From NCBI RefSeq assembly GCF_009746125.1, contig NZ_CP041352.1, forward strand, positions 771,847 to 835,846: DNA of 64,000 nt. Direction: 5' to 3'. Positions 16,248 through 22,462 of this stretch are shown here, piece by piece. Position numbers and translations under genes: made by a program. The DNA comes from Casimicrobium huifangae (GTDB lineage Bacteria > Pseudomonadota > Gammaproteobacteria > Burkholderiales > Casimicrobiaceae). The notes below the pieces were generated by a model. It saw nothing but the letters and a program-made list of their open reading frames with translations. It searched no databases and had not been told where the DNA came from. Within the stretch, counting starts at the first letter, position 1. The number at the start of each line of letters is the position of its first letter.

Positions 16248-16417
16248 CGCCTGCAATGTCCGCCTCGCCCTTCGCGGGGTGGCATCGGCGCGGGATTTCG
16301 CGGGCCAAGTGCTGGAGGACGCGGGCGATCTGCCGCAAGGCAGACACCGGCGAAGAACCTGGTACGGAAGCCGTGCCGCGGGGACACCACCACTTATTAA
16401 AAGAGGAGTTTGACCAC
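16248..16417 (+). other. GC-rich leader of hppA, function unknown
   Basis: About 165 nt lie between the likely start site and the ATG. It contains several complementary segments, for example CGCCTCGCCCTTCGCGGGG and ATCTGCCGCAAGGCAGA, so it can fold. I could not match it to a known riboswitch. The ribosome binding site AGAGGAG is near its 3' end. Confidence 0.3.
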
Positions 16418-18958
16418 ATGTCAGCCACCAACTGGCTCATCATTTCGCTTGTATGCGGACTGGCGGCCGTTCTTTATGGCGTTGTATCCATCAAATGGAT
16501 CAACGGCCTGTCTGCGGGCAATGCACGCATGCAGGAAATCGCCGGTGCCATTCAGGCCGGCGCCAAGGCGTATCTGGCGCGGCAATACCGCACCATCACC
16601 ATCATCGGCATCATTCTCGCCATCGTCATCGGCGTCTTCCTCGACCGCACGACAGCCTTCGGTTTCGTGCTGGGCGCGGTGCTCTCCGGCGCGGCGGGCT
16701 TCATCGGCATGAACGTGTCGGTGCGCTCCAATGTGCGCACCGCCGAGGCCGCCCGTTCCGGCATCAATGCCGCGCTGGCGGTTGCCTTCCGTGGTGGCGC
16801 CATCACCGGCATGCTGGTGGTTGGTCTGGGCCTGCTCGGTGTCGCCGGCTTCTACTGGTTCCTGATCGGCACCGCGCCGCACAGCGCCAACCCGATGAAG
16901 GAAGGCCTGCATTCCCTGATGTCGCCGCTGATCGGCTTTGCGTTCGGTTCGTCGCTGATCTCGATCTTCGCGCGTCTTGGCGGCGGCATCTTCACCAAGG
17001 GGGCAGACGTTGGTGCTGACCTGGTGGGCAAGGTCGAAGCCGGGATTCCGGAAGACGATCCCCGCAACCCCGCTGTGATCGCCGATAACGTCGGCGACAA
17101 CGTCGGTGACTGCGCCGGTATGGCCGCCGACCTGTTCGAGACCTATGCCGTCACCATCATCGCCACCATGCTGCTTGGCGCGCTGCTGATGAAGGCCAAC
17201 GCTGCTGCTGCGGCCGTGTATCCGCTGGCACTCGGCGGCGTCTCCATCATCGCCTCGATCATCGGTTGCTACTTCGTCAAGTACAGCGGTGCCGGCAAGA
17301 TCATGAACGCGCTCTACAAGGGCTTGATCGTCGCGGCTGTGTTGTCGCTGATCGCATTCTTCTTCGTTACGCAAACCGTGTTCGCCGGTGTTGAAGGCGT
17401 CAATACGATGAAGCTGTTCGGCGCCTGCGTCGTCGGCATCGTGCTCACGGGCGCGCTGGTGATGATCACCGAGTACTACACCGCCACCGAATACGCACCC
17501 GTGCGTCACGTCGCCCAGGCGTCCACGACTGGTCACGCCACCAACATCATCGCCGGTATCGGTATCTCGATGAAGTCCACCGGCTATCCGGTGGTTGCGG
17601 TCTGTATCGCCATCCTCGCCGCCTACTGGCTGGCGGGTCTCTACGGCATCGCGGTCGCTGCAACGGCCATGCTCTCGATGGCAGGTATCGTTGTTGCGCT
17701 CGACGCCTACGGCCCGATCACCGACAACGCCGGCGGTATCGCCGAAATGTCGGAACTGCCGCCAGAAGTGCGCAACGTCACCGATCCGCTCGACGCTGTT
17801 GGCAACACCACCAAGGCGGTGACCAAGGGCTACGCGATCGGCTCCGCCGGTCTCGCCGCGCTGGTGCTGTTCGCGGACTACACGCACGGCCTTGAAAGCA
17901 AGGGCATGGCGGTGTCGTTCGACCTGTCGAACCATATGGTGATCGTGGGCCTCTTCATCGGCGGCCTGATCCCCTACCTGTTCGGCGCGATGGCGATGGA
18001 AGCGGTTGGCCGTGCCGCCGGCTCGGTGGTGGAAGAAGTGCGCCGCCAGTTCCGCGAGATCAAGGGCATCATGGAAGGCAAGGCCAAGCCGGAGTACGGC
18101 AAGGCAGTTGACATGCTGACCACCGCTGCGATCAAGGAAATGATCATCCCGTCGCTGCTGCCGGTTGCCGTGCCAATCCTCGTTGGTCTGCTGCTCGGGC
18201 CGGAAGCGCTCGGCGGTCTGCTGATGGGCACCATCATCACCGGTCTGTTCGTCGCGATCTCAATGTGTACCGGTGGCGGTGCCTGGGACAACGCCAAGAA
18301 GTACATCGAAGACGGCAATCATGGCGGCAAAGGTTCCGACGCGCACAAGGCGGCGGTGACCGGCGACACCGTGGGTGACCCGTACAAGGACACCGCCGGC
18401 CCGGCCGTGAACCCGCTGATCAAGATCATCAACATCGTCGCATTGCTGATCGTGCCGGTGGTGGCCTCAATCCACGGTGGCACAGGTGCCAAGGCATCGG
18501 GCGCGCATGGCGCGGCCCCGGCTGCGGTGAGCGCACCGGCTGCCGCAGCGCCCGCCGCAGCTCCGGCTCCCGCTGCCGCAGCAGCGCCAGCAGCTGACGC
18601 CGGCAAGGTCGACGTCAACGCCAAGGTGGACGGCGACAAGAGCACCGGCACCATGAAGGTGTACTTCGCCAGCGCGTCGTCAGCACTGCCGGCTGGCGCC
18701 GACAAGGGCGTGGCCGACATGGTTGCCGCGTTCAAGGCCAAGGGCAACGGCAAGCTGGTGCTCAGTGGCTTCGTCGACCCGAGCGGTGACGCCGCCAAGA
18801 ACGCCGAGCTGGCCAAGCTGCGCGCTTTCGCCGTGCGCGATGCGCTCAAGGCAGCAGGTGTCGCTGAAGACAAGATCGAGCTGAAGAAACCGGAAGACCT
18901 GACCGCCGGCGCCACCTCGGCTTCTGAAGGTCGTCGCGTTGAGGTTACGCTGCAATAA
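16418..18958 (+). CDS. hppA: Membrane proton-translocating pyrophosphatase with OmpA-like C-terminal domain
   Basis: Inner-membrane H+-PPase that couples PPi hydrolysis to ion pumping. The core (residues 1 to about 686, many hydrophobic segments) has the PPi/Mg loop [20 protein letters not shown] and [20 protein letters not shown]. In [16 protein letters not shown] a Lys sits at the position that marks K+-independent enzymes. Unusually, the core is followed by an Ala/Pro linker (about 687-735) and an OmpA-like domain of about 100 residues, with [20 protein letters not shown] and the terminal [10 protein letters not shown]. This makes 846 residues against about 700 usually. The ATG at 16418 follows a good AGAGGAG ribosome site; the in-frame codon at 16256 lies in the leader. 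The gene stands alone before a terminator. Confidence 0.95.
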
Positions 18959-19188: not shown

Positions 19189-20388
19189 TCAGATCGCACA
19201 CGTCCGGAATCCGGCAAACACGTCGCTGCGACCGGCGGTAAAGTAGTTGCGATAGCGCGGGTGGTGCATGAGCGGCAGCGTGGCGTGTGATCCACCGCGC
19301 AGCACGCGATGCTGTCCATCGAACCACGGCGCCGAGTATTCGCGATAGCGGTCTGGCGTGAAGCCGGGGTAGGGGGCGAACGTGGTCGCAGTCCACTCCC
19401 ACGCACCGTTGCCCCATTCGATCAGGCCGTTTGACGCTGCGTATTCCCATTCGTGCTCGGTGGGCAGGCGACGGCCAGACCACATGCAATAGGCGTCCGC
19501 CTCGATGGCGCTCACGTGAACCACCGGTGCGGACAGATCAAGTGGCTGCCAGCGGTCAAAGCAGCGTTGTTGCCAGCCTTCGCAGCCATGCTCTTCATCG
19601 CGGCGCCAGCACGACGGATGCGCGGCACCAGTACGCGCGGCGAACGCCCCGGATTCGACAAAGGCGAGAAACTGTGCATTGCTTACCGGCGCGCGGTCGA
19701 TGCTGAATGCCGCGACTGCAACGTCGTGAACGCCACGCTCGTTGTCAAAACTGAATCCCGGGCCGTCGTAACCCGCGCGCAATGGCCCGGCGCCGACAGC
19801 GACTTCATCGCCCGCTGGCGATGCACGCGGTGCACGCACCCACGCAGGCCGCGGCCACGCCAGTGCCTGCGCGCACCACGCGATAGCCTCCAGATGCATC
19901 GCCTCGTGGAACAGTGACAAGCGGAACGGATACAGCCCGGCATCATCGTCGGCGACCTGCGCCAGTGCCTCGAGCACAGCGCTCTGCGTCGCGTCCATGT
20001 AAGTGAGGGCACGCTCGTGCGTGAGCTGCGGCAACTGCCAGCGTGCTTCGTGGGCGATCACGTTTGAGTTGAACAGCGCATCGGCCTCGTTCCAGCAGGA
20101 TGGCCGTGCGGCCACGGTGCGGCCGTCCGCCGTGTTGAACGCACCGCGCACGCACCACCATTCGGCAAACCATGCGGCGTGCGCGCATTCCCAAAGCGGC
20201 GGATTGATGCCGCGCTGGTACGGCGGCGCCAGCGCCGGCGCGTCCATCGTCTGCACATAGTCGCGGGTCAGCGCGCGCATTGCTTGCAGCGTGTGTCGCA
20301 GCGCTGCCGCGTCCAGCATCCGCGCTGCCCAACCGGCTGCGAGAACCTCCGTATGCGATAGTTGCGCGGTGAAGCCCCGTGTCGTCAT
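19189..20388 (-). CDS. senA: Selenoneine synthase SenA (EgtB-like non-haem iron enzyme)
   Basis: Predicted to join hercynine to a selenosugar with O2, the step that forms the C-Se bond of selenoneine. It is 399 residues from the ATG at 20388. The N-terminal DinB-like helical domain supplies the putative iron ligands His70 (ECAHAAWF) and His161/His165 in the HX3HXE motif FHEAMHLEA. The C-terminal half is an FGE-sulfatase/SUMF1 domain (GRRLPTEHEWEYAAS, RVLRGGSHATLPLMHHPRYR, GFRTCAI). That architecture is shared with ergothioneine EgtB, so the SenA call rests on the adjacent senB and selD. Its start overlaps the divergent senB start by 20 bp. egtD, for hercynine, is not in the window. Confidence 0.86.
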   Translation of the reverse strand: MTTRGFTAQLSHTEVLAAGWAARMLDAAALRHTLQAMRALTRDYVQTMDAPALAPPYQRGINPPLWECAHAAWFAEWWCVRGAFNTADGRTVAARPSCWNEADALFNSNVIAHEARWQLPQLTHERALTYMDATQSAVLEALAQVADDDAGLYPFRLSLFHEAMHLEAIAWCAQALAWPRPAWVRAPRASPAGDEVAVGAGPLRAGYDGPGFSFDNERGVHDVAVAAFSIDRAPVSNAQFLAFVESGAFAARTGAAHPSCWRRDEEHGCEGWQQRCFDRWQPLDLSAPVVHVSAIEADAYCMWSGRRLPTEHEWEYAASNGLIEWGNGAWEWTATTFAPYPGFTPDRYREYSAPWFDGQHRVLRGGSHATLPLMHHPRYRNYFTAGRSDVFAGFRTCAI

Positions 20389-21331
20389 CGTGTCTCCAGC
20401 CAATGCCCGCGCCAACAACGGCAACTGGCATACGGCGGCGCGTTGGGCGCGGTTTCTGTCCCACGATTATGCGGTGAAAATCGTCGAACGCTGGGCCGGT
20501 GCCGATCCGTTGCCCGATGCGATGGTGGCGCTGCATGCGCGGCGTTCTGCGGAATCGATCCAGCAATTCCGTCGGTTGCGACCCGCAGGCCGCCTGCTGC
20601 TGGCGTTGACCGGAACCGATGTTTATCGCGACATCCATGACGACGACGCTGCCAGGCTGTCGCTGGCGCTGGCCGATCGCCTCGTCGTGTTGCAGCCGCG
20701 GGCACTTGACGAACTGGATGCGAAATCGCGCATCAAAGCGAGCGTGGTTTACCAGTCGGCGTCGACGCTGAAGCCAGCCGTCCGTTCGTCGCGGCATTTC
20801 GACATCGTCCAGGTCGGCCATCTCCGTCACGAGAAGGATCCATTTACTCCGATTACGGCGCTGCGCCACCTGCCCGCCGATAGCCGAATTCGCCTCACCC
20901 AGATTGGCAACGCACTCGACGCCCATCATGCCGACGCCGTGGCTGTCGTCACGCGCGACGAGCCCCGCTTGCGCTGGCTGGGCGCGTTGAGCCACGCTGC
21001 GACGCGGCAGCGCATCAAGCGCGCCCATCTGCTGGTGATCGCCAGCCGCATGGAAGGGGGCGCCAATGTAATTGTTGAAGCTATCACCGCTGGCGTGCCG
21101 GTGCTCGCCAGCGACATCAGCGGCAACATCGGCATGCTGGGCGAGCACTATCCGGGGCTGTTTCCGTTCGGCGATGCGGCGGCCTGCGCCACGATGATGC
21201 GACGCGCCGAGACCGACGCCCGCTTTTATGACCGTCTGCTGCGCGCGTGCGGGCAATGCGCCAGGCACTTTGTGCCAGAGCGCGAGGCAAGCGGCATTCG
21301 CAGTGCCGTCGCCCGTGTCATTGCATTGTGA
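20369..21331 (+). CDS. senB: Selenosugar synthase SenB (glycosyltransferase)
   Basis: Family glycosyltransferase of about 320 residues that, in the known pathway, makes a 1-seleno-sugar from selenophosphate and a UDP-sugar. Recognisable family segments are VVIVSPANARANNGNWHTAA at the N-terminus, LTGTDVYRD, the GT-B-like VGHLRHEKDP, RWLGALSHAATRQRIKRAH, and the donor-site SRMEGGANVIVEAITAGVPV followed by ASDISGNIGMLG. The only start fitting the conserved N-terminus is GTG at 20369. No ATG is available nearby, and the ribosome site would lie inside the 5' end of divergent senA. selD/senC follows after 69 bp. Confidence 0.87.
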   Translation: MKPRVVIVSPANARANNGNWHTAARWARFLSHDYAVKIVERWAGADPLPDAMVALHARRSAESIQQFRRLRPAGRLLLALTGTDVYRDIHDDDAARLSLALADRLVVLQPRALDELDAKSRIKASVVYQSASTLKPAVRSSRHFDIVQVGHLRHEKDPFTPITALRHLPADSRIRLTQIGNALDAHHADAVAVVTRDEPRLRWLGALSHAATRQRIKRAHLLVIASRMEGGANVIVEAITAGVPVLASDISGNIGMLGEHYPGLFPFGDAAACATMMRRAETDARFYDRLLRACGQCARHFVPEREASGIRSAVARVIAL

Positions 21332-21363
21332 AGCAATGCTGTAAGCGCCTGCCTGCCGTTTGC

Positions 21364-21376
21364 GACAAAATTTGTC
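21364..21376. promoter_or_regulatory. Palindrome upstream of selD
   Basis: GACAAA-A-TTTGTC, a perfect 6-bp palindrome about one base, 25 bp before the selD ATG. Part of it, ACAAAAT, could also be a -10 element, so it may be either an operator or an internal promoter. Confidence 0.35.
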
Positions 21377-21400
21377 CCGCCCCATTTTCTGGAGATCCGT

Positions 21401-22462
21401 ATGAATGCCCCCGTGACCAACAACGCCGTTGAGCCGCGTCTCACCTCGCTCTCCCACGGCGGCGGCTGCGGCTGCAAGATCGCGCCGGGCGTGCTTTCGG
21501 AGATTCTTAAGAACAGTTCCGGGCTGTTGCCGAAAGAATTGCTTGTGGGAATCGAAACCGCTGATGACGCCGCCGTCTACAAACTCAACGACGAGCAGGC
21601 ACTGATCGCGACGACCGATTTCTTCATGCCCATCGTCGATGACCCGTTCGAGTTTGGCCGCATTGCGGCGACCAACGCCATCAGCGATGTCTACGCGATG
21701 GGTGGCACGCCGATCATGGCGCTGGCGCTGGTCGGCATGCCGATCAATGTGCTCTCGGTCGAAACCATCGGCAAGATCATCAAGGGCGGCCAGAGTGTCG
21801 CCACCGCAGCGGGCATTCCGATTGCGGGTGGGCACACGATTGACTCGGTGGAAGCGATCTACGGCCTCGTGGTGATGGGGCTCGTGCATCCGAGCAAAGT
21901 GAAAAAGAATGCCGACGCCAAAGTGGGCGACGTGCTGATCCTCGGCAAGCCGATTGGTGTGGGCGTGCTCTCCGCCGCGCTCAAGAAAGAGAAGCTCTCG
22001 CCCGAGGGCTACGCCGCGATGATCGCCAACACCACCAAGCTCAACAAGCCCGGCGCCGCGCTCGCCAACATGCCGGGCGTGCATGCGCTGACCGACATCA
22101 CCGGCTTCGGCCTCGCCGGCCACACGCTCGAACTTGCGCGCGGCGCCAGGATGACCGCCGTCATCGAGTGGAGCAAAGTGCCCTTCATCAAGGACGTGAA
22201 AGCACTCGCCGCCGAGGGCTACATCACCGGCGCGTCCGGCCGCAACTGGGCAGGTTATGGCAAAGACGTTACGCTGCCGGCGGATTTCGCGAGTATCGAT
22301 CAGGCGCTGCTGACCGATCCGCAGACGTCAGGGGGCTTGCTCGTCTCCTGCGATCCCACTATCGCCAACGACGTGATCGCGCTGTTCAATCGCGAAGGGT
22401 TTGAAAGCGCGGCTATCGTGGGGCGGATGGAGGCGGGCGCGGGGCGGTTGGTTGTGGTTTAG
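21401..22462 (+). CDS. selD: Selenide, water dikinase (SelD / SenC)
   Basis: Makes selenophosphate from selenide and ATP; it supplies SenB in the selenoneine route and any other selenium pathway. It is 353 residues, the normal length. The N-terminal loop SHGGGCGCKIAP carries Cys23 and Lys26, equivalent to the catalytic Cys17/Lys20 of E. coli SelD. The Sec position is therefore Cys and no recoding is needed. The PurM-like body has TTDFFMPIVDDPFEFGRIAA and the C-terminal LTDPQTSGGLLV. No selA, selB, tRNA-Sec or selU was seen in the window, which favours a role in the sen pathway. Confidence 0.95.
   Translation: MNAPVTNNAVEPRLTSLSHGGGCGCKIAPGVLSEILKNSSGLLPKELLVGIETADDAAVYKLNDEQALIATTDFFMPIVDDPFEFGRIAATNAISDVYAMGGTPIMALALVGMPINVLSVETIGKIIKGGQSVATAAGIPIAGGHTIDSVEAIYGLVVMGLVHPSKVKKNADAKVGDVLILGKPIGVGVLSAALKKEKLSPEGYAAMIANTTKLNKPGAALANMPGVHALTDITGFGLAGHTLELARGARMTAVIEWSKVPFIKDVKALAAEGYITGASGRNWAGYGKDVTLPADFASIDQALLTDPQTSGGLLVSCDPTIANDVIALFNREGFESAAIVGRMEAGAGRLVVV

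Follow-up and report, generated by a model that had tools for sequence, protein, structure and literature searches.

Three intact genes, senA, senB, and selD, lie side by side in the 64,000-nucleotide stretch of the Casimicrobium huifangae genome analyzed here (the window, G000:C1:771847-835846). The genome consists of one contig of 4.47 Mb and is 99.4% complete, and the GC content near the three genes is that of the window. Their products are an EgtB-like enzyme with an HX3HXE motif, a SenB-type glycosyltransferase, and a Cys-type selenophosphate synthetase. A preliminary description had read these contiguous genes as the senA/senB/senC set for selenoneine, and both their extents and their names held up against NCBIfam cut-offs, solved structures, and a SenA tree (Table 1).

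The senA frame is opened by a TTG (19189-20424). We consider the ATG at 20388 to be likelier, with GGAGA as its likely ribosome-binding site. The most likely start of senB is GTG 20369, and with these two starts the genes overlap by 20 bp.

Table 1. Features of the sen locus (window positions)
Feature	Position	Strand	Evidence
senA, selenoneine synthase, iron-dependent EgtB-like enzyme, 399 aa	19189..20388	-	NF041186, PDB match, tree, diagnostic residues
senB, selenosugar synthase (Se-glycosyltransferase)	20369..21331	+	GTG start 20369; TIGR04348, PDB match, literature-named residues
selD (senC role), selenophosphate synthetase, Cys type	21401..22462	+	NF002098; sole selD over cut-off in genome
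TGCGATAGT, proposed extended -10 promoter element of leaderless senB mRNA	20354..20362	+	Predicted; 13/13 same-genus junctions
senA/senB start regions, 20-bp head-to-head overlap	20369..20388	.	Read from sequence and genus loci
GGAGA, likely senA ribosome-binding site, within senB codons	20393..20397	-	Read from sequence

SenA carries H70 and the motif HEAMHLE (HX3HXE, with H161 and H165), and we take H70, H161, and H165 to be the three iron-ligand histidines of SenA. Its score against the SenA model NF041186 was 437 bits, 17 bits above the cut-off of 420, which places it in the SenA equivalog, and its best PDB matches were the SenA structures 8k5i and 8ryz (E about 2e-73, 251 bits). The same model gave 356 bits to the EgtB of this genome, and 359 and 334 bits, both below the cut-off, to the SenA proteins encoded beside senB in two other loci of the genus (L049 and L068). 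These scores are nearly equal, so the SenA score alone is no divider, and the tree and the gene neighbors decide.

We built the tree from 112 sequences. Besides SenA of C. huifangae, these were 20 family SenA rows, 65 rows drawn from named genomes, 22 rows of EgtB, and 4 references from the PDB. Excluded were the SenA of G051 (L027), a family genome, and 15 of the 80 named loci, 14 of the latter being duplicates of family loci (10 of L089-L099, plus L105, L107, L109, and L125) and one a contig-edge fragment (L093). The C. huifangae protein grouped with the SenA proteins, among them the V. paradoxus structure, and all EgtB rows stood apart (SH-aLRT 99, by a quick method without bootstrap, with OvsA and EgtB 4x8b flagged as long branches of unsure placement). 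The preliminary description had named clustering with EgtB as one result that would speak against its reading, and the tree gave the opposite. We further defined SenA-diagnostic columns as those in which a single residue accounts for 95% or more of 87 SenA rows and for no more than 5% of 24 EgtB rows; the C. huifangae SenA, itself one of the 87 defining rows, keeps 16 of 16.

SenB scored 408 bits with TIGR04348 (cut-off 300), within the equivalog, and its best PDB matches were the SenB structures 8jjn, 8jjq, and 8fbx (E about 5e-75). Of the 19 positions named in the literature (V. paradoxus numbering), 17 are identical, among them N20, T23, E231, R155, K158, and E239, while R22 is replaced by His and H235 by Asn. 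The relevant passages of PMC10891094 report that an N20/T23/E231 triple mutant lost all activity and that H235 mutants were partly active, and those of PMC10702425 place R22 in contact with ribose in a docking model.

SelD scored 521 bits with NF002098 (cut-off 299), is encoded with senB as in a sen locus, and has Cys rather than Sec in its GGCGCK motif. It is the only SelD over the cut-off in the genome, the second match reaching 62 bits. No Sec machinery had been seen in the window, and this now extends to the whole genome at curated cut-offs. A curated-model search of the closed genome gave no match for selA. No selB exceeded its cut-off of 242 bits, the best matches (187 and 186 bits) lying in frames of 400-420 aa whose size suggests EF-Tu. 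Among the 150 of 626 first-look candidates that were scored for tRNA-Sec, 12 matches were obtained, all below the gathering score, and the top two were named tRNA-Ser and tRNA-Leu by ARAGORN. Within this search, no Sec route was found as a user of selD. The genome also encodes the tRNA-selenouridine synthase SelU/MnmH (353 bits, cut-off 220). The earlier suggestion that selD may serve the sen pathway is therefore reasonable but incomplete, as there are at least two possible users; SelU alone could account for selD. Because SelU is present, selD is probably shared between the two rather than dedicated to selenoneine, and a dedicated role need not be assumed.

EgtD, which had been predicted to lie outside the window, was found at G000:C1:2915193-2916077 (TIGR03438, 326 bits, cut-off 291), so that a source of hercynine is encoded; the lack of one was the other result named beforehand as speaking against the reading. 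The gene directly follows a true egtB (571 bits), about 2.1 Mb from the sen locus, and the nearest solved relatives of this EgtB are 8qf6, 6qki, and 6o6l (486 bits). Judging from these genes, the cell can make hercynine and, because EgtD is encoded next to a true EgtB, probably makes ergothioneine too.

To place the locus among its relatives, we scanned genome contigs for SenA and obtained at least 562 confirmed relatives, of which the best 80 were examined for layout. In these 80, senA and senB were divergent in 68, including Variovorax paradoxus, and on the same strand in 2; senB was not seen in the examined flank of 10, one of them cut at a contig end. The divergent arrangement is the usual one. 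A selD-like gene was present in 54 of the same 80, 11 of these genes being only 31-38% identical. The preliminary description had the pathway as recently described in some actinobacteria and Variovorax, which needs adjusting: the sen genes are widespread in Betaproteobacteria, not rare. The sen cluster of V. paradoxus, with SenA, SenB, and SenC, was reportedly described by Kayrouz et al. in 2022. It holds the same three enzymes, and a V. paradoxus record (L135) shows the same divergence of senA from senB-selD. Its SenA is about 45% identical to that of C. huifangae, and the 20-bp overlap of senA and senB is a feature of the C. huifangae genus.

Some of these loci differ in composition. Distant SelD proteins neighbor senB in some Rhodocyclales, Accumulibacter, and other sen loci (L134:586-2868, L115, L141, L143-L145, L147, L152, L153, L159, and L160), and in L134, the sole one scanned, a pyridine-nucleotide oxidoreductase is fused to SelD (TIGR03169 and TIGR00476). 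SenA-type genes with no senB in 4 kb upstream occur in L101, L103, L124, L129, L130, L133, L136, and L155. In L101:2921-5191 (Zeimonas arvi; 465 bits with the SenA model) and L103 (Lautropia sp.), senA is immediately preceded by egtD in the same orientation.

Within the family, 64 genomes gave matches over cut-off to SenA in 13, SenB in 23, SelU in 57, and selA in 17. SenB was found in 14 of the 17 genomes of the genus, with senA beside it in 13 of those 14. The exceptions are G016, with a SenB fragment at a contig end, and G018 and G019, with no SenB over cut-off, G019 having a contig-edge senA. The gene selD follows senB in 8 of the 13 loci, and the stretch retrieved for the other five (L049, L054, L058, L062, and L064) showed no selD; the link of selD to the locus is thus looser than that between senA and senB. 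Of 12 genus loci, compared over stretches of unequal length, 10 have hppA near senA and 8 have acuI on the far side of senB/selD (one of them a partial gene at the locus end). As these flanks are kept, they speak for vertical inheritance of the sen locus in the genus. In the window, positions 16256-18958 (+) encode what looks like an unusual fusion, in which a membrane pyrophosphatase (about residues 59-739) is followed at the C terminus by an OmpA-like domain (about residues 750-898); five same-genus loci have matches, 855-876 aa long.

Ten genomes of sister genera (G023-G027, G029, G042, G055, G047, and G058; loci L071-L080) have selD next to a true egtB; senB is missing from the surroundings, and no protein of these genomes passes the SenB cut-off. 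We considered a selenium role for these egtB genes and rejected it: they cluster with ordinary EgtB, the EgtB of L079 scored 575 bits, and SelU is present in 7 of the 10. It is likelier that the selD-egtB pairs are remnants of a cluster in which sen and egt genes were joined, as they are in G044 (L081:5796-12284), where senA, senB, selD, egtB, and egtD stand in a row. Two of the ten, G047 (97% complete, with selD) and G027, have no SenB or SelU over cut-off and no selA, possibly through assembly gaps. In G026, selD is split over two frames (L074:8715-9756), as a broken gene or an assembly error.

We then looked at the junction of senA and senB. The element TGCGATAGT, six bases before senB and, on the other strand, inside senA codons 9-12, was the same in all 13 same-genus junctions, even though the SenA proteins of the other 12 loci are only 45-68% identical to that of C. 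huifangae. Of these 13 loci, 12 retain the senA ATG, with ATA in L090, and senB starts with GTG in 11 and ATG in 2, with the 20-bp overlap. The hexamer GATAGT occupies positions -12 to -7 relative to the senB start codon and is preceded by TG; TG followed by a -10 hexamer is the consensus of the extended -10 box. If GATAGT serves as a -10 element, transcription would start at the senB start codon itself and give a leaderless mRNA, and TGCGATAGT looks like the promoter of such a transcript. Conservation through the Leu-Ser-His residues of the SenA protein would be another explanation, a weaker one because all 13 loci use the same codons (CTA TCG CAY). One genome of the genus, G013 (L190:4796-8560), has senB directly after hppA, with no senA match and no selD in 10 kb; TGCGATAGT is absent there, as expected if the element lies within senA. 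With its spacing to a start codon, the pattern occurs once in the C. huifangae genome, at senB, so no regulon was seen there. The 17 genus genomes gave 21 matches, 13 of them at senB, and the reversed-pattern control gave 5.

A wider set of upstream regions was compared after dropping near-identical upstreams, alignments starting after residue 25, and starts more than 15 bases off, the start being taken as the in-frame one nearest the alignment. The pair A-11 and T-7 was present in 29 of 68 distinct senB upstreams and missing from 39; the mean per position was 3.3, and the next best position had 10. The rows are related, so these counts are not independent. Outside the genus the pair was present in 16 of 55, against a mean of 2.5 and 8 for the next best. 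The Shine-Dalgarno core was found in 0 of 68 senB upstreams, where shuffles gave an expectation of 6.6, compared with 18 of 55 for selD (5.2 expected) and 14 of 29 for egtB (5.8 expected); the egtD control, with 3 usable rows, was too small to be informative. The selD upstreams showed a slight excess at -11/-7 (7 of 55), equal to that at another position. From this we tentatively propose, at somewhat less than even odds, that the senB-selD arm of sen loci is transcribed without a leader, that its promoter in the genus lies in the first codons of senA, and that, with the 20-bp overlap and the start of senA transcription crossing this promoter, the two arms can restrain each other. A full-text literature search for selenoneine with leaderless transcripts, which covered papers other than the original selenoneine and ovoselenol reports, found none, and as far as that search shows, such a balance of the sen arms through a buried promoter is so far unreported.

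If senA were a second egtB, the locus would make ergothioneine and its selenium genes would be adjacent by chance. SenA and the ergothioneine sulfoxide synthase EgtB (4x8b, 8qf6) do have the fold and the three iron-ligand histidines in common, and the EgtB model TIGR03440 gave the protein 221 bits. This score, however, is below the cut-off of 360 and outside the EgtB equivalog, while the SenA cut-off was passed. The tree and the 16 diagnostic columns set the protein apart from EgtB, the true EgtB is encoded elsewhere, beside egtD, and senB adjoins senA in 13 genus genomes. On model scores and tree we reject an EgtB paralog and give it next to no credence. An enzyme resembling OvsA, the selenoxide synthase of ovoselenol (8ux5, 8u41), or acting on another substrate, would instead yield a selenometabolite other than selenoneine. 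OvsA is related to SenA and belongs to a different selenometabolite route; among solved relatives it ranks next after SenA (179 bits), and it matches 12 of the 16 diagnostic columns over the printed pieces of its chain, and the SenA clade of the genus, with the identities given above, is fast-evolving. Yet the SenA structures score higher (251 bits), and the C. huifangae protein has the SenA residue at the four columns where OvsA departs (R81, A168, P354, and W355). Moreover, when the whole genome was searched with the models of EgtB and SenA, only senA and the true EgtB came up, with no second OvoA/OvsA-like enzyme, and EgtD would supply hercynine. The PDB scores and the diagnostic columns thus disfavor OvsA, and we regard this reading as quite unlikely.

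The sen genes might also be relics, with selD kept only for SelU and senA and senB silent or failing. Such decay would fit the wider spread of SelU than of SenB in the family (57 against 23 of 64 genomes), the senB without senA in G013, and the lack of either gene in complete form in G018 and G019. In C. huifangae, by contrast, senA and senB are intact with conserved active sites, and a promoter-like element is conserved at senB, which makes loss of function very improbable.

Taken together, we read this as a working sen locus for selenoneine, with hercynine from EgtD and SelD probably shared, and put the probability of this reading at about 0.92 from genome sequence. The reactions are assigned by homology to characterized enzymes, in the order given by PMC9814287 and by passages of PMC10702425 and PMC10891094. 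SelD would convert selenide to selenophosphate, which SenB would join with a UDP-sugar to form a selenosugar. The iron enzyme SenA would then couple the selenosugar with hercynine, provided by EgtD, and oxygen, and loss of the sugar and reduction would give selenoneine. SelU would draw on the product of SelD for tRNA selenouridine, and senB, with selD, may be transcribed without a leader from a promoter that lies within the 5' end of senA.

The sen pathway itself is already published; what is added here is its genome context, the probably shared selD, and the idea of a leaderless promoter. By the known routes tested, this closed betaproteobacterial genome appears to direct selenium to selenoneine and tRNA selenouridine and not to selenoproteins, and a strain of this kind would offer a clean background in which to test the function of selenoneine. 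The conserved promoter-like element at senB provides a testable idea of how the sen pathway is expressed and, if true, would be a way of balancing the supply of selenosugar by SenB and SelD against its use by SenA.
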